A DNA stretch of 64,000 bases, from assembly GCA_026692665.1 (NCBI GenBank), contig JAPLOF010000062.1:1-64000 (forward strand). The letters are read 5' to 3'. Both the position numbers and the translations under genes were made by a program. This DNA is from Planctomycetota bacterium. Lineage in GTDB: Bacteria; Planctomycetota; UBA1135; GCA-002686595. Every line of letters begins with the position of its first letter. Position 1 is the first letter of the stretch. Of the stretch, positions 42,654 to 55,883 are shown piece after piece. The notes below the pieces were generated by a model that was given only the letters and a program-made list of their open reading frames with translations, was not told the origin of the DNA and did no database searches.

Positions 42654-42729
42654 CGGGGAGTACCTCAGTTGGTAGAGGCGAAGCTTTGGGTGCTTCGAGT
42701 CGTGGGTTCGAGTCCCATCTCCCCGACCA
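42654..42729 (+). tRNA. tRNA-Pro (anticodon UGG)
   Basis: A full cloverleaf is visible: acceptor CGGGGAG/CTCCCCG, D-stem CCTC/GAGG, anticodon stem GAAGC/GCTTC with loop TTTGGGT (anticodon TGG), T-stem GTGGG/CCCAT, discriminator A and an encoded CCA. It lies 14 bp before the broken tRNA-Arg gene, so both were a tandem tRNA locus before integration. Confidence 0.95.
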
Positions 42730-42743
42730 GCCTCTGTGTCCGA

Positions 42744-42782
42744 GCGCCCGTAGCTCAGCTGGATAGAGCATCGGATTTCTAA
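42744..42782 (+). pseudogene. 5' half of a disrupted tRNA-Arg(UCU) gene (attL side)
   Basis: The 39 bases hold acceptor 5' strand GCGCCCG, D-arm GCTC/GAGC, the 5' anticodon stem TCGGA and the whole loop TTTCTAA, then stop matching a tRNA exactly after AA. The missing 3' half is at 55846-55883, beyond the element. Following element sequence does not rebuild the anticodon stem, T-arm or acceptor. Confidence 0.93.
42773..42782 (+). repeat. attL core
   Basis: GGATTTCTAA spans the end of the anticodon stem and the loop of the tRNA-Arg. It is identical to the core at 55836-55845, and identity ends at both sides, which fixes the crossover within these 10 bp. Confidence 0.9.
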
Positions 42783-42884
42783 AGAGATCGCGCACGTACC
42801 GAAGCGGTCCTCGCTTCTCGCTAACCCGTTGCGCCGTATGGTTCCGATAGAGAACCGGGTCCCGAAGGGGTCCCGTGCTTTTCT

Positions 42885-42902
42885 CCCTACGGACCTTACG
42901 GA
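42885..42902 (+). repeat. Candidate integrase arm-type sites (attL side)
   Basis: Two adjoining 9-mers, CCCTACGGA and CCTTACGGA, lie 24-41 bp before the integrase start. The second recurs exactly near the other end (55758-55766). Tandem short repeats flanking the core are typical arm sites for tyrosine integrases that have an N-terminal arm-binding domain, as this one does. Confidence 0.5.
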
Positions 42903-42925
42903 CGCCTTTGCGGCGGAGCGCAACG

Positions 42926-44236
42926 ATGACGAGCAACAGGATCAAGCTGACGCGTGCAACGATCGAGCGAGACTGTCTTCCGCCCGCGCCGGGCGAAGTC
43001 AACGCGAACGGGAAGCGCGTGCTGGAGCGCTTCTACTGGGACGATGAAGTGCGCGGCTTCGGCATCGTCGTGCGCGAGAAGAGTCGATCGTTCATCGTGC
43101 AGAAGGACGTCAAGGGTCGCTCGGTGCGCGTCACGATCGGGCGCTTCCCCGACTGGACCTCAGAGCAGGCGCGCAAGCGTGCGCGCGAACTCGTCGTGGA
43201 GATGGACAAGGGCGGCAACCCGAACCGACGCGAGCGCGAAGAGGCCGCGCGAGGCGTGACGCTCGCCGAGGCGATCGAGTGGCACAAGGAAGCGATGCGC
43301 GCAAGGGAGTGCGCCGAGCGTTCGATCGCGAGCGTGAGCTACGAGATCGGTCTGCACCTCGGCGACTGGCTCAAGCGTCCGCTCGCTGAGATCACGCCGA
43401 ACGAGTGCGCCACGCGACACCGACGCATCAAGGGCAAGTACGCAGCCAACCGGGTCATGCGCCTCCTCCGCGCCTGCTACAACACGGCGGAGAAGCGCCA
43501 AGGCGATCTCCCGAAGTGCCCGATCAAGGGAGTCACGTTCAACAAGCAACGGCGCAGGCAGGAGCCGATCTTGTGGAGCCAGCTTGCTGCGTGGGGCGCG
43601 AAAGTGGATGCGATCGGCAACCCGATCCGTCGCGACCTCCAACTGTTCGTGCTCTTCACCGGGCTCCGCAGCACGGACGCGCGAACCGTCCGCTGGGAGC
43701 ACGTCAACTTGGGCACCGAGCCGACGGTCCTGGGCCGCGTCGAGATTCCGCCGGGGTGCATGCATCGTCCGAAGCCCAAGGGAGGCGAGGATTGCGCGTT
43801 CACCGTGCCGCTCTCCGCGTTCGTCCTCGACATCCTCCGCCGTCGGCGCGCAGAGAACTCGCAGCTGTACCCCGACGACGGCGGCTGGGTGTTCCCAACG
43901 CGCGACATGCAAGGCGCGATCACGTACGTCCAGGAGATGAAGGAGCAAGTCGTCGGCCCCGACGGCAAAAAGGTTGGCAAGCTCCAATCTCCGCACCGGC
44001 TCCGCGACACGTTCGCGACCGCCGCGAGGGAGGCCAGCGTCGAGAAGCTCGCGCTCAAGGTCCTGATGAACCACAAGTTGCCCAAGGACGGCGACGGCGA
44101 CGTGACCGACGGCTACATCCGGAACTCGGTCGAGCACCTTCGCGTGTCCGTCGAGCGGGTCTCCGCGTTCCTCCAGGAACGGCTCTGGCCGAAGGGGCAC
44201 GTGCTCCACGCGGTTCCGCGCGCCGAGGCCGGATAG
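42926..44236 (+). CDS. int: Tyrosine-recombinase integrase
   Basis: This 436-residue integrase catalyses insertion and excision of the element. It has an N-terminal arm-DNA-binding domain (about 40-105, VRGFGIVVREKSRSFIVQK), a core-binding domain (about 112-200) and a complete catalytic set: R248 (TGLRSTDA), H357 and R360 (HRLRD), H383 (MNHK) and nucleophile Y397 (DGYIRN). The ATG at 42926 follows GGAG by about 7 bases; an upstream in-frame start at 42875 would run through the putative arm sites. It reads away from attL, and the element tRNA-Arg follows 52 bp later. Confidence 0.95.
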   Translation: MTSNRIKLTRATIERDCLPPAPGEVNANGKRVLERFYWDDEVRGFGIVVREKSRSFIVQKDVKGRSVRVTIGRFPDWTSEQARKRARELVVEMDKGGNPNRREREEAARGVTLAEAIEWHKEAMRARECAERSIASVSYEIGLHLGDWLKRPLAEITPNECATRHRRIKGKYAANRVMRLLRACYNTAEKRQGDLPKCPIKGVTFNKQRRRQEPILWSQLAAWGAKVDAIGNPIRRDLQLFVLFTGLRSTDARTVRWEHVNLGTEPTVLGRVEIPPGCMHRPKPKGGEDCAFTVPLSAFVLDILRRRRAENSQLYPDDGGWVFPTRDMQGAITYVQEMKEQVVGPDGKKVGKLQSPHRLRDTFATAAREASVEKLALKVLMNHKLPKDGDGDVTDGYIRNSVEHLRVSVERVSAFLQERLWPKGHVLHAVPRAEAG

Positions 44237-44288
44237 ACCCGGCTCTCCTTGGAGCGGCATCCTCCCGGGCGGTAGCCTAGGCGTGCAA

Positions 44289-44365
44289 GCGCCCGTAGCT
44301 CAGTTGGATAGAGCAGCTGCCTTCTAAGCAGCAGGTCCCTGGTTCGATTCCAGGCGGGCGCGCCA
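44289..44365 (+). tRNA. tRNA-Arg (anticodon UCU), element-borne intact copy
   Basis: The cloverleaf is perfect: acceptor GCGCCCG/CGGGCGC, D-stem GCTC/GAGC, anticodon stem GCTGC/GCAGC around CTTCTAA (anticodon TCT), T-stem CCTGG/CCAGG, discriminator G, encoded CCA. It reads the same codons as the broken host gene. Its 5' half is nearly identical to the host gene but its anticodon stem and T-arm differ, so it is not a simple duplicate. It keeps only TTCTAA of the 10-bp integration core, which could protect it from the element integrase. Confidence 0.96.
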
Positions 44366-45028: not shown

Positions 45029-45778
45029 GTGTCAAACCTCGACCCGAAGCTGAAGGCCATCCTTGACGGCGTCAAGGGGAAGCGCGCCCGTACCGTCATC
45101 GACCACATTCTGAAGCACGGCTCGATCACCAACGAGGAGCTGAAGGACACCTACGGGTACAACCACCCGCCGCGCGCCATCCGAGACGTTAGGGAGAACG
45201 GCGTGCCCATCAAGACCGAGCGGATCCAGGACAGCACGGGCCGCAGCATCGCGCGGTACACGTTCGGTAGCCCGGATGAGATCGAGGATCACAAGCTCGG
45301 CGGCCGCCAAGTTTTCGCACGCGACCTCGTGGACAAGCTCTACGAGAAACAGGCCGGACGGTGCGCCCTGTCTGGTGTCCGGTACGAGCGGCGCTACCTT
45401 CAAGTTGACCACCGCATCCCGTACGAGGTCGCGGGAGAGGCGGACAGGGTAGCTGAGGGAAACGACACCGACGGCTTCATGCTCGTCAGCGGTGCAGCGA
45501 ACCGACAGAAGAGCTGGAGCTGCGAGCACTGCGCAAACCTGACCGGCGCGAAGGATGCCGAGGTCTGCTCTCGCTGCTACTGGGCGGCTCCGGAGAGCTA
45601 CAAACACATCGCCACGCGTGAGCTTCGCACGGTCAGCTTGACCTGGGAGGGGAAGGCCGTTTCCGAGCACGAGCGCTTGCTCAAGCAGGCCGAGGCGAGC
45701 GGGCTTACTCTGCCGGATTTCATCCAGCTGGTGCTTCGCAGATCACGCGGACTTGCCGAGGAGCGTGGCTTGCGATGA
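45029..45778 (+). CDS. HNH restriction endonuclease
   Basis: The 249-residue protein has an N-terminal winged helix (about 18-80, RTVIDHILKHGSITNEELKD). A beta-beta-alpha-metal HNH nuclease core follows: C112, QVDHRIP with D127-H128, and N158 in GAANRQKSW. A zinc ribbon (C165, C168, C180, C183) adjoins the core. Its 3' end overlaps the convergent adenine methylase by 36 bp, the arrangement expected for a type II restriction-modification pair. It starts at GTG 45029. The recognition sequence cannot be read off. Confidence 0.85.
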   Translation: MSNLDPKLKAILDGVKGKRARTVIDHILKHGSITNEELKDTYGYNHPPRAIRDVRENGVPIKTERIQDSTGRSIARYTFGSPDEIEDHKLGGRQVFARDLVDKLYEKQAGRCALSGVRYERRYLQVDHRIPYEVAGEADRVAEGNDTDGFMLVSGAANRQKSWSCEHCANLTGAKDAEVCSRCYWAAPESYKHIATRELRTVSLTWEGKAVSEHERLLKQAEASGLTLPDFIQLVLRRSRGLAEERGLR

Positions 45779-47130: not shown

Positions 47131-47536
47131 GTCGGGCTCCTTGTCGGTTCGGCGGCACGAGGCGCACCCTAACGGATAGCGAACAGCGTTTCTAGTCCGC
47201 ATCGAGCGAAAGCCGTGCGATTCCCGCATCCGGGACTCCAGCCACGCGACACTGGACCGTCGGAGTCGGGAGCCGACGGCGGGCCGCCCGAAGTCGTGGC
47301 GGGGCTGGCGGTCCCGGGTCCTGGGGTCGCCCAAGGAAGGGGCGGCAAAGGTCGGGATGCGCCCGGCGCTGGCGGACGCCGAGCCAGCCTCCGGGTGCTC
47401 CCCCGGTGCCAGCCCTGCGAGCGGCGGTCGCGACCCGACCTCGACTGCACCGAACCGGCCGAACGTATCAGGCGCGCCACGGGAGAGCGTCGCTCGCGCC
47501 TTGCCCTGGCCCCTTCGGACCGGAAGAATCCGGTCG
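47131..47536. other. Intergenic, 406 bp, no supported gene
   Basis: This lies between the divergent Myb-like and protease genes and must hold both promoters. Open frames here continue into the neighbouring genes from upstream but show no recognisable protein. No clear promoter consensus or hairpin was identified. Confidence 0.4.
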
Positions 47537-48754
47537 ATGGCCACCGACCCGAAGTACCTGCAACGTGCAAAGTTCTACGAGCAGATCGAGAAACGTCGGG
47601 GACGCCCGCTGATCGTCTACGCCACGAGCACTCGGCCAAACGTCGAGGGCATGATGGCGGGCGATGCTGTCCGAGAGTTCGTCGAGCAGATTCAGGCCAT
47701 CGGCAAGGCCGAAGCCGTTGACGTCCTGATCCACAGCTACGGCGGCGACCCGCTCGCGGCGTGGCGAATCATGTCAACGCTCCGAGAGACGTACTCGAAG
47801 GTCGGGGTCCTCGTACCGTTCGCCGCGTTCAGCGCGGCGACGGTTCTGTCCCTTGGCGCTGACGAGATCGTGATGCACCCGTTCGCGGCTCTCGGCCCGA
47901 TCGACCCGCAGATTCGTGCGCAGACCGCGCGAGGCGAGGTTCGATTCGCCTACGAGGACGTAGGTGCGTTCCTCAAGTTCATCAAGGAACAGGTCGGTGT
48001 CACGGAGCAGTCGTTCCTCACTCCGATCATGGACAAGCTGTTCGCGGTCGCGGAACCGTTGACGATCGGAGCGGCCCAACGCGCGAGCGATCTGTCGTCA
48101 GAGATGGGCGAGCGGATGCTGCGCATGCACATGACGAAGGGGAAGGACGCTGCACGATGCAAGGACATCGCGCAGAACCTGAACAAGAGCTTCTTCAGTC
48201 ACGGCGACGCTGTGTCTCGTGAGCGAGCGCGGACACTCGGCCTCCCCATCGCCAAACCCGACGAGGACTTGGAGCGCCTGATCTGGGGTGCGTTCTGCGG
48301 CTTGGAGGACTACATGGAACTCCAGTCAACGTTCCATCCCTTGACGGCCTTCATGAAGGACCCGCAAGCAGCCGGTACGTTGACGCCCGTTCCGCCGCTC
48401 GCGCTCCCGGCCGACACCCCTCCGGCCGTGCTCCAGCAGACCTGGAACCATGTGGTTCAGCAGGCACTCCAGCCCGGCAAGCCGAGTCCCGAGGTGCCCT
48501 ACGAAATCGTGAAGGTCGTGGTCGAGAGCCTGAGACGCTCGGCCGCAATCGTCGTCAAGGGGCGTGTTACGGCTGCGCGACTCGGGCAGGAGATCAAGGT
48601 CGGCGTCCTGGACGTTGGCGGCGGCTGGGAGGTCCTGCACGAGGCCAGGCAAGCCGGAAACGGGCTCCAGTCTCCCCGGCCTGGAACCGAAGAAGTAAGA
48701 TCGGGCGGAAGATCGCGCCGGGCTCGTTCGTCGAAGCCCGCCGAGCCCATGTGA
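47537..48754 (+). CDS. SDH-family ClpP-fold serine protease
   Basis: The 405-residue protein belongs to the serine dehydrogenase-proteinase (SppA/ClpP-fold) group. An N-terminal crotonase-like core of about 220 residues shows VDVLIHSYGGDPLAAW (oxyanion loop) and FAAFSAATVLSLGADEIVM, where the Ser in SAAT is the likely nucleophile; GPIDPQ follows. It has no signal peptide, so it is cytoplasmic. The second half is helical and unassigned. The stop overlaps the start of a 79-residue protein (GTGA), so the pair is co-translated. A defence or toxin-like role is possible but unproven. Confidence 0.8.
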   Translation: MATDPKYLQRAKFYEQIEKRRGRPLIVYATSTRPNVEGMMAGDAVREFVEQIQAIGKAEAVDVLIHSYGGDPLAAWRIMSTLRETYSKVGVLVPFAAFSAATVLSLGADEIVMHPFAALGPIDPQIRAQTARGEVRFAYEDVGAFLKFIKEQVGVTEQSFLTPIMDKLFAVAEPLTIGAAQRASDLSSEMGERMLRMHMTKGKDAARCKDIAQNLNKSFFSHGDAVSRERARTLGLPIAKPDEDLERLIWGAFCGLEDYMELQSTFHPLTAFMKDPQAAGTLTPVPPLALPADTPPAVLQQTWNHVVQQALQPGKPSPEVPYEIVKVVVESLRRSAAIVVKGRVTAARLGQEIKVGVLDVGGGWEVLHEARQAGNGLQSPRPGTEEVRSGGRSRRARSSKPAEPM

Positions 48755-49025: not shown

Positions 49026-49703
49026 CTACTCGTCGAGCCCAGCAAGTCGGTAGCGGAGCTTCCGCATCGCGCGCTTCTCGATCTGGCGGATGCGTTCGCG
49101 CGTGCGGGAGAAGTGGCGTGCGACCTCTTCGAGGGTTCTCGGCCCGCCGCCATCGAGCCCGAAGCGTAAGCGCAGCACCTCCGCGTCACGTGGGCGCAGC
49201 GTCACGAGCGCCGACTCGATCCGCTCCCGGAGCAACGCGCGCTCCGCACCGTCCGCCGGGGCCTCCGCGTTGTCGTCGCCGAGCGTGCTCGCGAGCGAGG
49301 TTGAATCGTCATCGCGGCCGAGGGGCGCATCGAGCGAGACGGTCCTCGGACCCTCCCGATGCCCTTGCATCGTCGAGAACCTGGACCGCTTGCTTGCGAG
49401 GTCGCGTTGGATCGCGGCACGGGCCCACCAGAAGAACGCCGTGGCGAACGCTCCACGCGACGGATCCCAGCGTTCCGCAGCGGCAATGAGACCGAGGTAC
49501 GCGGTCGAGCGAAGCTCCTCGAACTCGCGGCCCGTGTACAGGTAGCGGTTCGCGATCCACGAGCACAAGCCGATGTGCTCTTCGATCAAGGCGTCTCGTC
49601 GTCGTCGCGCGAACGCGGCGCGTTGCCCAGCGAGCAGACGAGCACGCGCCTCCGGGTCGCTCCACTGGCGCAACGCCGAAGCGCGGAGCGTTGCGGGACT
49701 CAA
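49026..49703 (-). CDS. Sigma-70-family sigma factor carried by the element
   Basis: The protein has 225 residues from a TTG at 49703 that overlaps the upstream stop (TTGA). Region 2 is FEELRSTAYLGLIAAAERWDP ... AFATAFFWWARAAIQRDLA (in parts). Region 4 is LRPRDAEVLRLRFGLDGG plus RTLEEVARHFSRTRERIRQIEKRAMRKLR, close to group 1-3 sigma factors rather than ECF. Regions 1.1 and 3 are reduced. It ends the minus-strand arm and could switch on element genes; the cognate promoters are unknown. Confidence 0.85.
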   Translation of the reverse strand: MSPATLRASALRQWSDPEARARLLAGQRAAFARRRRDALIEEHIGLCSWIANRYLYTGREFEELRSTAYLGLIAAAERWDPSRGAFATAFFWWARAAIQRDLASKRSRFSTMQGHREGPRTVSLDAPLGRDDDSTSLASTLGDDNAEAPADGAERALLRERIESALVTLRPRDAEVLRLRFGLDGGGPRTLEEVARHFSRTRERIRQIEKRAMRKLRYRLAGLDE

Positions 49704-50047
49704 GCGGACAAGCGCTCGGCGTGCTCGCGGACTCCGGCCGTGTCGAGGCGTTGTCCCGCGAGGTTCACGATTCGGGCGCGCACGTCCTCGCGGCCTGCGA
49801 TCGCCCAAGCCATGTCCGCGTCGTGAAGCATGATGACCGCCTCCGGGTCGTCGAGTCGTGCGCACCACCCGTCGGCGCTCGGCGCTCGGCCGTGCGTGAC
49901 GACAAGAGCCGCGCCAAGGCTCGCACCGGGCTCGGCCCGTGCAAGTCGCTCCAACGCGGAGAAGCCCATCGGCCGACCGAACTGCCGGTTGTGGGCGTCG
50001 GCAGCAGCGATCACGCGGCGCGTCGCGATGGAGAGACGGTCCAGCAT
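49700..50047 (-). CDS. Hypothetical small protein upstream of the sigma gene
   Basis: This is a soluble protein of 115 residues. Its first 30 residues (LDRLSIATRRVIAAADAHNR) resemble the opening helix of ClpA/ClpC N-domains, but the rest does not clearly match. The start directly abuts the stop of the 50048 gene (TAG then ATG) and its end overlaps the sigma gene, so it is tightly coupled on both sides. An anti-sigma or adaptor role is conceivable from position only. Confidence 0.6.
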   Translation of the reverse strand: MLDRLSIATRRVIAAADAHNRQFGRPMGFSALERLARAEPGASLGAALVVTHGRAPSADGWCARLDDPEAVIMLHDADMAWAIAGREDVRARIVNLAGQRLDTAGVREHAERLSA

Positions 50048-50611
50048 CTAGAGACCCTGCGCGTAGGCGTAGGCGTTGCGCACGACGGGATCCTCCGTGA
50101 GCAGCCGTGCGACAGCCTTCTCGATCGACTCGCCCTCGCGTCGGCGGTGTCGCGCGCTCTCGACGATCAGGGGCCACACCTTGTCCTCGCGCTTCTCGAC
50201 GAGTTCGCGCTCCTCCGCTCGGTCGGCGCGTTCGCCTTCGTCGTACAGCTTCGCCATGCGCGGATCCTCGGCGAGGAGTCGCGAGAAGGTGACAGCGACG
50301 CTCTCGCCCTGGCGGGCCTCGCGCTTGGCGAGGTCGAACATCCCCTCCTCGGCTTGGGCCTTCGACATGCCGCCCGAAGCGCGCGCGCGATCCTGGACAC
50401 GCTGCGACGCGAAGTGCAACGCCTCGACCTTCGGGTTTCCAGCGTTCATCACGCGCGCGAGAGCGTGGCCGAGGTCCTCGCCGATCGCTTGCTCGTGACG
50501 CGCAACGTCCAAGATGGAGCCCTCGTACTCGGCGGCGGGGAATCTCGGCTCCTGTCCGTCATTCATCACGGCCATGGCGTCGCTTAGGATCTCTTCGTGT
50601 GTTGCGGTCAT
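50048..50611 (-). CDS. Hypothetical protein with repeated helical module
   Basis: The 187-residue, charged, helical protein holds at least three copies of a module of about 36 residues: about 30-60 (ARHEQAIGEDLGHALARVM), 95-130 (AKREARQGESVAVTFSRLLAEDP) and 148-187 (ARHRRREGESIEKAVARLLTEDP). The same module occurs in the neighbouring gene. Similar AFxRLxxxP-type helices occur in some phage proteins, but I cannot name a family. It overlaps the upstream gene by 4 bp. Confidence 0.6.
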   Translation of the reverse strand: MTATHEEILSDAMAVMNDGQEPRFPAAEYEGSILDVARHEQAIGEDLGHALARVMNAGNPKVEALHFASQRVQDRARASGGMSKAQAEEGMFDLAKREARQGESVAVTFSRLLAEDPRMAKLYDEGERADRAEERELVEKREDKVWPLIVESARHRRREGESIEKAVARLLTEDPVVRNAYAYAQGL

Positions 50612-51832: not shown

Positions 51833-52354
51833 TCACGATTTCGCCTCCGCGTCCCCCACCTCGTCAGCGTCCCGGCCCAGCTCTCGCTCCAGGATTCGGC
51901 GCAGATCGGCGCGCGATTCGGGGCTCAGCTCGTCGAGGCCGAGGCTCGGTCGAGTCTTGATCGTGGTGGTCTGTTCGATCTGCGCGACGGTGCGCGAGGC
52001 GTAGCGCTCGGGCATCATGCTCTGCGCTCGGAGCGCGAGCAGCTTGTCCGAGTACCGCTTGCGCGAGCCGATCTGCACACCATTGGTCCCGTACACGGGC
52101 TCGTCGATGCCCTCGACGGAGCGGCGATGCAGCTCCATTTCGACCTCGGCACGCGCGTGCTCCATCGCTTCCTCGACCTGCGCCGCGAACTCGGCCTCAC
52201 GGTCGCGGAGGTCACGGAACGAGTAGATTGCCCCGGTCTTCGAGTGCGGACTCGCGGCCCGAGCGGCACGCGCGAAGACGCCATGACGAGAGAGTTCCGC
52301 GAGGAACAACTCGCGCCGTTTCGCCGTCAGTGGAAGTCGTCGGGGCCCGTCCAT
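51833..52354 (-). CDS. Terminase-small-subunit-like DNA-binding protein
   Basis: The 173-residue protein has an N-terminal homeodomain-like helix-turn-helix (LTAKRRELFLAELSRHGVFARAARAA, residues about 8-35). It continues with HRRSVEGIDEPVYGTNGVQIGSRKRYSDKLL, a pattern seen in many phage terminase-small-subunit-like proteins, visible here as RRSVEGIDEPVYG and RYSDKLLALRAQ. No large terminase is present. In phage satellites such a protein can redirect the helper phage packaging motor. The ATG at 52354 is used; a TTG at 52384 would add 10 residues. Confidence 0.6.
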   Translation of the reverse strand: MDGPRRLPLTAKRRELFLAELSRHGVFARAARAASPHSKTGAIYSFRDLRDREAEFAAQVEEAMEHARAEVEMELHRRSVEGIDEPVYGTNGVQIGSRKRYSDKLLALRAQSMMPERYASRTVAQIEQTTTIKTRPSLGLDELSPESRADLRRILERELGRDADEVGDAEAKS

Positions 52355-52476
52355 TGTACATCTAATCGTAGTTGCAACTTCCAAACGGGGGCGAGACCCT
52401 AATGCGGAAAACGAGCTGATTCCTCGACGTTTTCGCGCGCAACCTCATGTTGTGAGATTGCCCAGCGAGAGGCTCC

Positions 52477-52758: not shown

Positions 52759-55176
52759 TCACCCAAGCACTTCGTTCTCCACCTCGCCGACCGGGCCCCA
52801 CTGCGCGTCCGCACCGCCTGGCCAGTCGCGGGGCCCATGCCGCTCGCACCAGGCCGCCCGCAGCTCCGGCAGCGGCGGGAACACGCGCGAGCGCCGCCCG
52901 CCCCGTTCCGGGCTCGTGATTCCCCAGTCGTCGAGGAACGCGCCCAAGGTCACGTCGCTTTCCTCCCGCAGCTGCGGCACCGTCTCGTCGGCGTGGGGGC
53001 GCAGGCCCCACGGATCGAGGCTCGACGGCGGACCCCACCACGCCCGGCGCGAGATTGCCTGAGGCTTCCCCTGGACCGACCGCGACACGTTGTTCGGCAA
53101 CTGGCCGTCGAGCAGCAGCGTCAGCAGCCACTGGTCTTTCGGCTCCAGATTCCGATGCACCTGATCTTGCAGCGCGGCCGTCCTCGGTGCGCGCCGGACG
53201 TTGAAGCCCGACAGGTCCATCGCCAGCAGCATCTTGAGCAGGGCACCGTAGCCGCCCGACAACATCTGCCGCTCGATCGCCTCGAAGTAGACGTGCTGCC
53301 CGCGCCGCGCGTCCGACACGTCGAGGACAAAGTAGCGGCGCTCGTCGCCGGTCGCCTTGACCACGCTGAGGTCGTTCGAGGCGAGGATCAGGTGGAGGAC
53401 GTTCTTGCGGTCCACCACGTCGATGCCCTTGCGCTCGACCTTCACCGTGTCCTCGGTCACCATCCCCTTGAGGATGGACTCGTGCCGCTTGTCGTTCGGC
53501 CGCGTCGCCTCGTCCAGGAAGACCACGCTGGCCGCTTCGATCAGCGAGTTGAACTTCGTCAGGTGGTCGGGGTTCGTGATCTGGACGAAGTGGCGGCCCC
53601 ACAGCCTCCCGAAGTGCCAGGCGAAGACGCCCTTGCCGGTGCCCTTGAGGCCGCGCAGCACGACGGCGACATGCCCGGGCTCGCCCGGCCGCTGGACCGC
53701 GTAGGCCATCCAGCGGATCAGGTAGTCGTAGTGCTCCTCGATGCCGCCGCAGATGACCTCTCGGACGTGCGCGAGGTAGAGCCCGCAGTCGCCGTCGTCG
53801 GATGGCGACACCGCGAGTCCCTGCCACAGGTTGTAGATCCCTTCGGGCAACTCGACGCCCGGGGCGTAGTTCACGTCCTCGTACGACCGGCGCAGCCGGT
53901 GCCGGAACCACCACTCCCCGGCAGGGACCTCCTCGACCTTGCCCTTGGCCACGGGGACCGCGACGCGGCGCGTGTTCCAGAAGTCCTTGAACGCCTCCTT
54001 GTGGAGGTACTCGACGGTACGGCGCTCGAACAGCGGGTCCCAGGACTCGCGCAGGACGCGGCTCGACCCGCCGACGATTACGCTCGCGTGCCGTGAGTTG
54101 ATCTCCGACAGCAGCGGATCGTCTTCGGCCTCGGCGTAGGCGCGATCCACCTGCCGCCGCGCGTAGCGCTCTGCCGCCGCCGCAGTCCGTGCATGACCCT
54201 TTGAGTCCACGCGGATCGCGTCGCTGATACCCCAGCAAGGGTCCAACAGGATCGAGTAGATGACCTCGGGCTTCACGCGTTGGCGTGCCATCTCGCACGT
54301 CGCCCAATACTGCCACTCCGACCGCGACCAGCCCGCGCGCTCCGGGTCGGTGTTCATCTCGTCGAGCCCGCAAGCGATGATGCGCTTGACGACCGGGGGC
54401 ACCGTCGGCGGCAATTCGGCGTCGAGGTCTTGCACGCGCTTCACGTCGGCGCTGATCTCGACGCCAGGCCCGCCGTCCGCCGCGACCTTGGGCGTGACGC
54501 CTTGGGCCTTCTCGAAACGCGCAATGTCGAAGGTGTCCTCAGAGAACTCGACCACGGCCGCCAGGGCCTCCACCCGGCCCTTCGAGCGCTTGCGCTTGTC
54601 GGGTCGGTTGATCGACCCCGGAAGGCGCATGATGCGATCGACGTTGTGGCAGTTGTCTCCGCCCAGCAGCAACTCGATCTGCTTGTTGTAGCGCTTCGCG
54701 TCCTCGAATGCTTCCTTGGTCCCGTCCAAGAGCACAGGCATCTTGAGCCGCCAGAAGCCCTGGTAGCCTCCGCCCGAGAACGTGATCACAGAGGGCTTGG
54801 GCAAGCCCTTCGCACTCGGGTCGCGGAGCAACGCGAGGATGCGCGTGCGCTCGGCATCGAGGTCTTCGCCCACCCGAGGATCGAGGTCCACGTGGAGCCA
54901 CGAGAGAGCCGAGATGTTCTCGCGGTCCGGCTTGCTCTTGACCGCGCGCGTGACGGGGTTGACCGTGAAGTAGATGTTGCGAGACTTGCCGTGGAGCGTG
55001 AGCCAGCCACGCATCCGGTCTTCCTCGGCCGCCGAGAACGTGTCCGTGTCGATCCCGCGCTTGTCCGGGTCGATGGCGGTCAGGACCCAGGGGCCTTGAG
55101 GGTTCCACTTGCGGAGGAAGTCGATCGAGGCTTGGTAGTCAGGTCGGGGCGAGCTGTCGGGCTTCGGTTCGCTCAT
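52759..55176 (-). CDS. Primase-helicase replication protein
   Basis: The 805-residue protein has an N-terminal archaeo-eukaryotic-type primase (PrimPol/RepB-like) with HVDLDP (95-100), FSGGGYQGFW (133-142) and RLPGSINRP (184-192). A linker and a superfamily-3-type helicase follow, with Walker A LRGLKGTGKG (507-516), Walker B VVFLDEA (551-557) and a LILASND sensor. This fusion replicates many plasmids, satellites and phages. It starts 4 bp inside the excisionase stop (ATGA) and ends next to the iteron cluster, which it may bind. It supports autonomous replication after excision. Confidence 0.9.
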   Translation of the reverse strand: MSEPKPDSSPRPDYQASIDFLRKWNPQGPWVLTAIDPDKRGIDTDTFSAAEEDRMRGWLTLHGKSRNIYFTVNPVTRAVKSKPDRENISALSWLHVDLDPRVGEDLDAERTRILALLRDPSAKGLPKPSVITFSGGGYQGFWRLKMPVLLDGTKEAFEDAKRYNKQIELLLGGDNCHNVDRIMRLPGSINRPDKRKRSKGRVEALAAVVEFSEDTFDIARFEKAQGVTPKVAADGGPGVEISADVKRVQDLDAELPPTVPPVVKRIIACGLDEMNTDPERAGWSRSEWQYWATCEMARQRVKPEVIYSILLDPCWGISDAIRVDSKGHARTAAAAERYARRQVDRAYAEAEDDPLLSEINSRHASVIVGGSSRVLRESWDPLFERRTVEYLHKEAFKDFWNTRRVAVPVAKGKVEEVPAGEWWFRHRLRRSYEDVNYAPGVELPEGIYNLWQGLAVSPSDDGDCGLYLAHVREVICGGIEEHYDYLIRWMAYAVQRPGEPGHVAVVLRGLKGTGKGVFAWHFGRLWGRHFVQITNPDHLTKFNSLIEAASVVFLDEATRPNDKRHESILKGMVTEDTVKVERKGIDVVDRKNVLHLILASNDLSVVKATGDERRYFVLDVSDARRGQHVYFEAIERQMLSGGYGALLKMLLAMDLSGFNVRRAPRTAALQDQVHRNLEPKDQWLLTLLLDGQLPNNVSRSVQGKPQAISRRAWWGPPSSLDPWGLRPHADETVPQLREESDVTLGAFLDDWGITSPERGGRRSRVFPPLPELRAAWCERHGPRDWPGGADAQWGPVGEVENEVLG

Positions 55177-55445
55177 CGCGCGGACGCCTCCTGCGCGGTG
55201 TTCGAGATGCGACGCGCGGACATCCATGCGTCGAGATCGACGCGCGAGTAGCGGACGTGGCGGCCGAGCCTGCTGTAGACCGGCCCGCAGCCCGAGGAGC
55301 GCCAATGCTCCAGTTGCTTGCGCGAGACGGACAGGTAGGCCGCAGCGGCCGGGGTGTCGAGGTAGGCGGGCTCGGGCAGTTCGCAGCGAGCTTGGGAAAC
55401 CGCCGCGTCGAGTGTCGCGCGGCGAGAGGTCTGATTCTGGTTCAA
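55173..55445 (-). CDS. xis: Excisionase-type HTH protein
   Basis: The 90-residue protein with a MerR/AlpA-like helix-turn-helix (YLDTPAAAAYLSVSRKQLEHW, then GPVYSRLGRHVRYSRVDLDAW) is typical of excisionases and AlpA-type regulators. It starts at TTG 55445 and overlaps the replication gene by 4 bp. Position at the attR end opposite the integrase fits a directionality factor that also starts the replication operon. Confidence 0.8.
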   Translation of the reverse strand: MNQNQTSRRATLDAAVSQARCELPEPAYLDTPAAAAYLSVSRKQLEHWRSSGCGPVYSRLGRHVRYSRVDLDAWMSARRISNTAQEASAR

Positions 55446-55835
55446 GCGGATGCATCCCTTGGGAGCACCGATCGGCGGACCGATCGAAGCCCCGCGTTGG
55501 GGTCGATGATCCGCACCTACTTGATCCAGTTCAGCGTCACCACGAGTAGGCCGTTTCGGGCCGGTCGTGGGAGCCTGTTTGGGCGCGTTGTTGAGGCCTC
55601 CCGGTCTGGCTGTTCCGGGAAGGACATCTAGATTCTAGCTCCGAACCGGCCCCTAGGAGATCGCATCTTGAGGAATCGTCGCGCGCGTGTCGCTCGCGCG
55701 TGCTCGACCGCTTCGGTGCTCGTCGGGAGCGTCCGCTTGATGCGTACCTTAGTATTGCCTTACGGAGAAAGTACGGGCTCGCGGATCGACGTGCTAACGT
55801 CCACGCGCGCCACAACTTCGCGATCCACCGCCGCA
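55446..55835. other. Right-end region of the element, no gene
   Basis: The 390 bp between xis and the attR core must contain the xis promoter on the minus strand and integrase/Xis sites. An unusually AT-rich patch lies at about 55743-55772, containing a CCTTACGGA copy. Open frames here are short and show no recognisable protein. Confidence 0.5.
55758..55766 (+). repeat. Candidate integrase arm-type site (attR side)
   Basis: CCTTACGGA is identical to 42894-42902 near the other end and lies 69 bp from the attR core. Confidence 0.45.
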
Positions 55836-55883
55836 GGATTTCTAATCCGACGGTCGCAGGTTCGAGTCCTGCCGGGCGTGCCA
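55836..55883 (+). pseudogene. 3' half of the disrupted tRNA-Arg(UCU) gene, with attR core
   Basis: Bases 55836-55845 are the core GGATTTCTAA. From 55846 follow the 3' anticodon stem TCCGA, variable CGGTC, T-arm GCAGG/CCTGC around TTCGAGT, acceptor CGGGCGT, discriminator G and CCA. Joined to 42744-42782 it gives 77 nt with all stems paired (G-U at the first acceptor pair). No D-arm or acceptor 5' strand lies upstream, so this half cannot form a tRNA alone. Confidence 0.93.

Follow-up and report, generated by a model that had tools for sequence, protein, structure and literature searches.

In actinobacteriophages, tRNA-dependent lysogeny has been defined as a strategy with cores of about 10 bp in which the phage tRNA was shown to be required, and the authors asked how widespread such integration is (Guerrero-Bustamante and Hatfull 2024, PMC10865867). 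In phage-related sequences of Sinorhizobium meliloti, an inactivated host tRNA is replaced by an element tRNA that is nearer to those of other taxa. The tRNA-Leu(UAG) of this kind is 80.6% identical to the inactivated host tRNA and 97.6% identical to tRNAs of other taxa (PMC11476347). The Lj965 prophage of Lactobacillus johnsonii, as cited in PMC10865867, leaves its host tRNA unrebuilt and carries a cognate tRNA.

The window analysed here is a stretch of 64,000 nucleotides from a Planctomycetota bacterium, and in it a host tRNA-Arg(UCU) gene is interrupted within its anticodon loop by a 13.06-kb element. The element follows an established strategy, tRNA-dependent lysogeny, in an island that resembles a phage satellite. 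Positions 44289-44365 appear to encode a functional replacement tRNA-Arg(UCU), the odd anticodon stem of which is probably explained by ancestry from, or resemblance to, another lineage.

The split host gene and its replacement

The target gene, the two junctions and the element tRNA are arranged as follows.

42654-42729, plus strand: host tRNA-Pro(TGG), the upstream neighbour of the target gene (ARAGORN); the order matches the empty site of genome G001
42744-42782, plus strand: attL, the 5' half of host tRNA-Arg(TCT) with the core at its end; 100% identical over 39 nt to the intact G001 gene
42773-42782, plus strand: left core copy, 10 bp, GGATTTCTAA; the overlap at the empty site is exactly 10 nt
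44248-44280 (approximate), plus strand: promoter-like TTGGAG-N18-TAGCCT upstream of the element tRNA, a putative assignment
44289-44365, plus strand: complete replacement tRNA-Arg(TCT) with encoded CCA and anticodon stem GCTGC/GCAGC (ARAGORN; Rfam tRNA, 72.2 bits)
55836-55845, plus strand: right core copy, 10 bp, GGATTTCTAA, by sequence comparison
55836-55883, plus strand: attR, the orphan 3' half of host tRNA-Arg(TCT), GGATTTCTAATCCGACGGTCGCAGGTTCGAGTCCTGCCGGGCGTGCCA; identical over 47 nt to the intact G001 gene

The left half, GCGCCCGTAGCTCAGCTGGATAGAGCATCGGATTTCTAA, represents the first 39 nt of host tRNA-Arg(TCT). It starts 14 bases past tRNA-Pro and continues into non-tRNA sequence, and the span from core to core is 13,063 bp. 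When the two host halves are rejoined, they are identical at 76 of 76 positions to the intact tRNA-Arg(TCT) of G001, a genome of the same genus that lacks the integrase and has an intact tRNA-Pro/tRNA-Arg pair. At this empty site (L053, 2428-2437) the two flanks of the window overlap by exactly 10 nt. Neither ARAGORN nor Rfam called a tRNA at either junction, and neither end rebuilds the gene. Integration destroyed the host tRNA-Arg(UCU) gene, and two useless halves remain.

The locus combines a tyrosine integrase and an attB inside a host tRNA gene with a common core of about 10 bp and no tRNA reconstruction at either junction. A tRNA-Arg(TCT) of the target's isoacceptor lies inside the element, and the same layout is found in four relatives. 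The element tRNA is the sole tRNA-Arg(UCU) that searches recovered from the assembly, which is about 90% complete and could be missing another UCU tRNA; the remaining Arg tRNA genes found have the anticodons CCT, CCG and ACG. The proposal that the element brings a replacement for the tRNA it destroys is supported by the split gene, the empty site and this single UCU tRNA. Weak Rfam matches to YrlA and Plastid-ycf2 over the tRNA sequence scored below the gathering thresholds and were discarded.

In the proposed mechanism, the tyrosine integrase would recombine attP with the anticodon loop of host tRNA-Arg(UCU). As attP and attB would share only 10 bp of sequence, integration would leave two useless gene halves. 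The AGA and AGG codons would then be read by the element's own tRNA, presumably expressed from its own promoter, and integration without this tRNA would probably be lethal. The -10 sequence of the candidate promoter resembles a TANCCT box upstream of the replacement tRNAs of related elements.

A satellite-like island and its relatives

Apart from the tRNA, the element carries the following genes.

42875-44236, plus strand: tyrosine integrase with Arm-DNA-bind_3 and Phage_integrase domains (Pfam; PHROG phrog_1)
45029-45778, plus strand: restriction-endonuclease-like protein with a winged HTH (PADLOC REase_II, E=8e-41; Pfam HTH_39)
47357-48754, plus strand: ClpP-like serine protease of the SDH type (Pfam SDH_protease), weakly similar to head maturation proteases
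49026-50177, minus strand: sigma-70-like factor (Pfam; phrog_351)
51833-52384, minus strand: terminase small subunit-like protein, kept in related elements (phrog_4044, E=4.9e-26)
52759-55455, minus strand: P4-type primase/helicase (DUF5906), kept in related elements (Pfam; phrog_1829; TIGR01613 below cut-off)

The terminase small subunit-like gene adjoins the P4-type primase, and this pairing is conserved in related islands. Among the scanned ORFs of the element, phage-type matches are limited to the primase, the sigma factor, the small terminase-like protein and the ClpP-like protein; Pfam and PHROG revealed no capsid, tail, portal or large terminase. An integrase, a primase and a small terminase within about 10-17 kb, free of a structural module, are the makeup of a PICI-like phage satellite. 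Judged by its genes, the element looks like a Planctomycetota phage satellite that carries defence cargo, and its mobility would depend on a helper.

A split target together with a replacement of the same isoacceptor occurs in five elements with related integrases, three from Planctomycetota, one from Myxococcota and one from Rickettsiales. The anticodon, the two stems and the state of the core in the replacement tRNA are given for each.

Window: TCT; host TCGGA/TCCGA, element GCTGC/GCAGC; core broken, 6 of 10
Pla86: TCT; host CCCGA/TCGGA, element CCGCA/TGCGA; core whole, 7 bp
G306: CCT; host CCGGT/ACCGG, element AGCGC/GCGCT; core whole, 7 bp
Myxococcota MAG: CCT; host GGTCT/AGACC, element GTCGG/CCGAC; core whole, 7 bp
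Rickettsiales MAG: CCT; host TCAGA/TCTGA, element CCAGA/TCTGG; core whole, 9 bp

One integrase family uses tRNA-dependent integration in three phyla, in satellite-like islands and with two arginine isoacceptors. Pla86 (CP036296, titled 'complete genome') has the split gene and a related integrase, and the element TCT gene was recovered there beside CCG, CCT and ACG Arg genes. Among the Arg genes recovered, the target is unique in Pla86 and in the window assembly (90% complete), and it is not unique in the Myxococcota relative, where another CCT gene is present. Four of the five replacement tRNAs are preceded by a TANCCT-like -10 box, and the sequence around this box is similar among them. Most of the related islands share the primase, the integrase and the small-terminase gene, and they also bear methyltransferases or a GmrSD-type nuclease. 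The cargo differs from island to island, being of the restriction/modification kind or GmrSD/HEC-05-like (window 45029-45778; L048 4374-8378; L116 11647-13317; L145 1566-3266). A search of IMG/VR with the integrase found no relative.

Many phages carry a tRNA-Arg, and the element tRNA could be a passenger that supplements codons in the manner of phages or protects against tRNA-cutting defences, its match to the split gene being coincidental. This explanation is highly improbable, since the isoacceptor agrees with the split gene in all five elements, for UCU and CCU alike, these elements yielded no further tRNA gene, and searches of the assembly recovered no UCU tRNA besides the one in the element.

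The target tRNA is rebuilt in two relatives. In G255 the target is a tRNA-Val, and a 50-nt 3' fragment lies at the far end; in G003 the element supplies the 5' half of the target. The integrases of G003 (G003:C414; L046, L047) and Pla86 (L048) are 91% identical, but the outcomes are opposite, the target being rebuilt in the former and split with an unrelated replacement in the latter. This pair represents a recent switch of strategy and offers a natural pair for studying how such a switch evolves.

Several other loci bear on the history of the family. The Myxococcota genome has one more orphan 5' half of tRNA-Arg(CCT), which lies on the other strand some 1.4 kb beyond the island (L145 9234-9274; G425:C415:93233-93273, minus) and looks like the trace of a second element that once interrupted another copy. 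In G306:C36 (L113 16193 onward, joined L113+L114), an orphan 5' half of a tRNA with a CAT anticodon is followed, about 0.7 kb further downstream, by a second integrase of the family, and the contig stops before the other junction. Truncated integrase copies, of which about 310 aa align, occur 2-5 kb from an intact tRNA-Arg(CCT) in G017, G021 and G010 (L050, L051, L052), and in G017 the interval between the integrase copy and tRNA-Arg(CCT) contains short repeats of the 5' end of the tRNA; these three loci are possibly decayed islands. Near a distant integrase in Amylibacter kogurei there are two orphan 3' halves that resemble tRNA-Thr(TGT) and are separated by about 6 kb (L069 5284-5324, 11387-11430), and an intact tRNA was not found within the 16 kb examined.

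Origin of the anticodon stem

The first-pass annotation proposed that the stem of the element tRNA had been recoded to stop the integrase from using it. Direct comparison confirmed the letters on which this was built: the stem is GCTGC/GCAGC against TCGGA/TCCGA in the host, which changes three of the five pairs, the match to the core is limited to TTCTAA (6 of 10), and the first 26 nt carry a single mismatch to the host gene. The loop of the element was also read correctly as CTTCTAA, but it is not kept from the host, where the loop is TTTCTAA and differs at position 32. In total, 15 of 77 positions differ between the two tRNAs. The 17-nt anticodon arm accounts for 7 of these, the T-arm and variable loop together account for 6, and the other 2 lie elsewhere. 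The differences extend into the T-arm, as expected of a tRNA from another lineage.

Native genes provide the counterpart. The arm GCTGC-CTTCTAA-GCAGC occurs exactly in the native tRNA-Arg(TCT) of seven Planctomycetota genomes from other families (G312, G291, G256, G082, G161, G286 and G199). No integrase match was found in these seven; they include no positive control, yet the same query did match relatives. At the level of the arm, the sequence of the element tRNA is therefore a host sequence in genomes that lack the integrase, which is a case that the first-pass annotation had named as refuting, and recoding against the integrase is not supported. In family f30, tRNA-Arg(TCT) lies beside conserved neighbours across genera, and its stem is GCTGC or TCCGC depending on the genome; the gene is therefore native, and its stem drifts. 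Native stems also vary inside genera g54 and g60, and the replacement stem of Pla86, CCGCA/TGCGA, is native in G008 of the same family.

A complete listing of the TCT genes of the order gives 100 native genes. The full 10-bp core is present in 41 and absent in 59, and in 39 of the 100 the core match is no better than TTCTAA, as in the element tRNA. At least three stem pairs differ from the host in 20 of the 100, and the genus-weighted probability of at least three changed pairs is 0.12 in the order and 0.05 in the family. In the host's own family, two or more inner-pair changes are found in one genus only.

The element tRNA is 81% identical to the host gene and 94% identical to the G312 gene. 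The donor or look-alike would be a lineage whose native tRNA-Arg(UCU) bears the GCTGC/GCAGC stem. Capture from the same host lineage, with the stem differences arising by drift after capture, would account for the near match of the first 26 nt and is consistent with the drift of native stems within genera. However, the element tRNA resembles genes of another family more closely than it does the host gene, which makes such a capture quite unlikely.

The changed arm would plausibly make a poor substrate for the integrase. It is a separate matter whether the replacement tRNA was selected for an anticodon stem unlike attB, so that the integrase cannot self-insert, insert in tandem or delete there. 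Such selection is consistent with the window, where three of five pairs are changed and the core is broken, and with three other elements, in which at least two inner pairs are changed too. Over the five elements, 9 of 15 inner pairs (29-31 with 39-41) are changed, which exceeds the native expectation (p ~0.015, against a small and biased null of loci picked by similarity with only 16 CCT genes). For the window's own case, this null was replaced by the complete TCT gene listing of the order. Each of the five mycobacteriophage tRNAs examined also has at least one inner pair changed when compared with the host stem, as deduced from phages that restore it, and Hatfull's group speculated that a plasmid-borne phage tRNA might function as an additional attB (PMC10865867).

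The cores of the replacement tRNAs point the other way. The whole core is kept in four of the five, so that the comparison of related elements reveals no consistent disruption: the Rickettsiales tRNA retains the whole 9-bp core, with one of five stem pairs changed, and those of Pla86, G306 and Myxococcota retain the whole 7-bp core. Of the 10 positions that the inferred host gene has in common with the attP of phage Moostard, the Moostard tRNA retains 9, and each published phage that was examined has a replacement tRNA with at least the 7-nt loop preserved. Considering also that the arm of the window tRNA and the Pla86 stem are native elsewhere and that stems drift even within one genus, selection of the window tRNA for avoidance is unlikely. 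As a general rule for tRNA-splitting elements, the retention by selection of replacement tRNAs with a stem unlike their own attB is likewise doubtful. If true, a selected stem difference would prevent tandem or self-insertion and would parallel, in nature, the rescue genes that are recoded to resist cutting in engineered gene drives.

Ancestry is a sufficient explanation and a simpler one than selection for avoidance. Poor reuse of the element tRNA as an integration site would then be a by-product of descent from, or likeness to, another lineage, and the locus suggests that a host's essential tRNA can be exchanged for that of another lineage.

Comparison with known systems

The closest systems are the actinobacteriophages Fionnbharth, LeBron, Gaia and BrutonGaster (PMC10865867), which share with the window element an arm-binding tyrosine integrase, an attB in the anticodon loop, a core of about 10 bp, an unrebuilt host tRNA, an element tRNA of the same isotype and related integrases that rebuild. 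They are complete temperate phages that use tRNA-Lys, tRNA-Ile2 or tRNA-Leu, whereas the elements described here are satellite-like islands of 10-17 kb, known from sequence, that use tRNA-Arg(UCU or CCU) in Planctomycetota, Myxococcota and Rickettsiales hosts. The S. meliloti case is alike in that the element tRNA is about 81% identical to the replaced host tRNA and closer to other taxa; it differs in involving alphaproteobacterial phage-related sequences and other isotypes. Lj965, so far as it is described in the citing study, shares the unrebuilt tRNA and the cognate replacement and differs as a Firmicute prophage. The literature searched contained no report of such integration in Planctomycetota or in satellites, which is not proof of absence.

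Rebuilding tRNA islands (Islander database, PMC4383910) are similar in their tyrosine integrase, tRNA target and terminal direct repeats. In contrast to these islands, the window element restores nothing at either end, while its relatives G255 and G003 are of the rebuilding type. Ordinary phage satellites of the PICI and P4 kinds rebuild their target. The window element resembles them as a small island with an integrase, a P4-type primase, a small terminase-like gene and restriction cargo.
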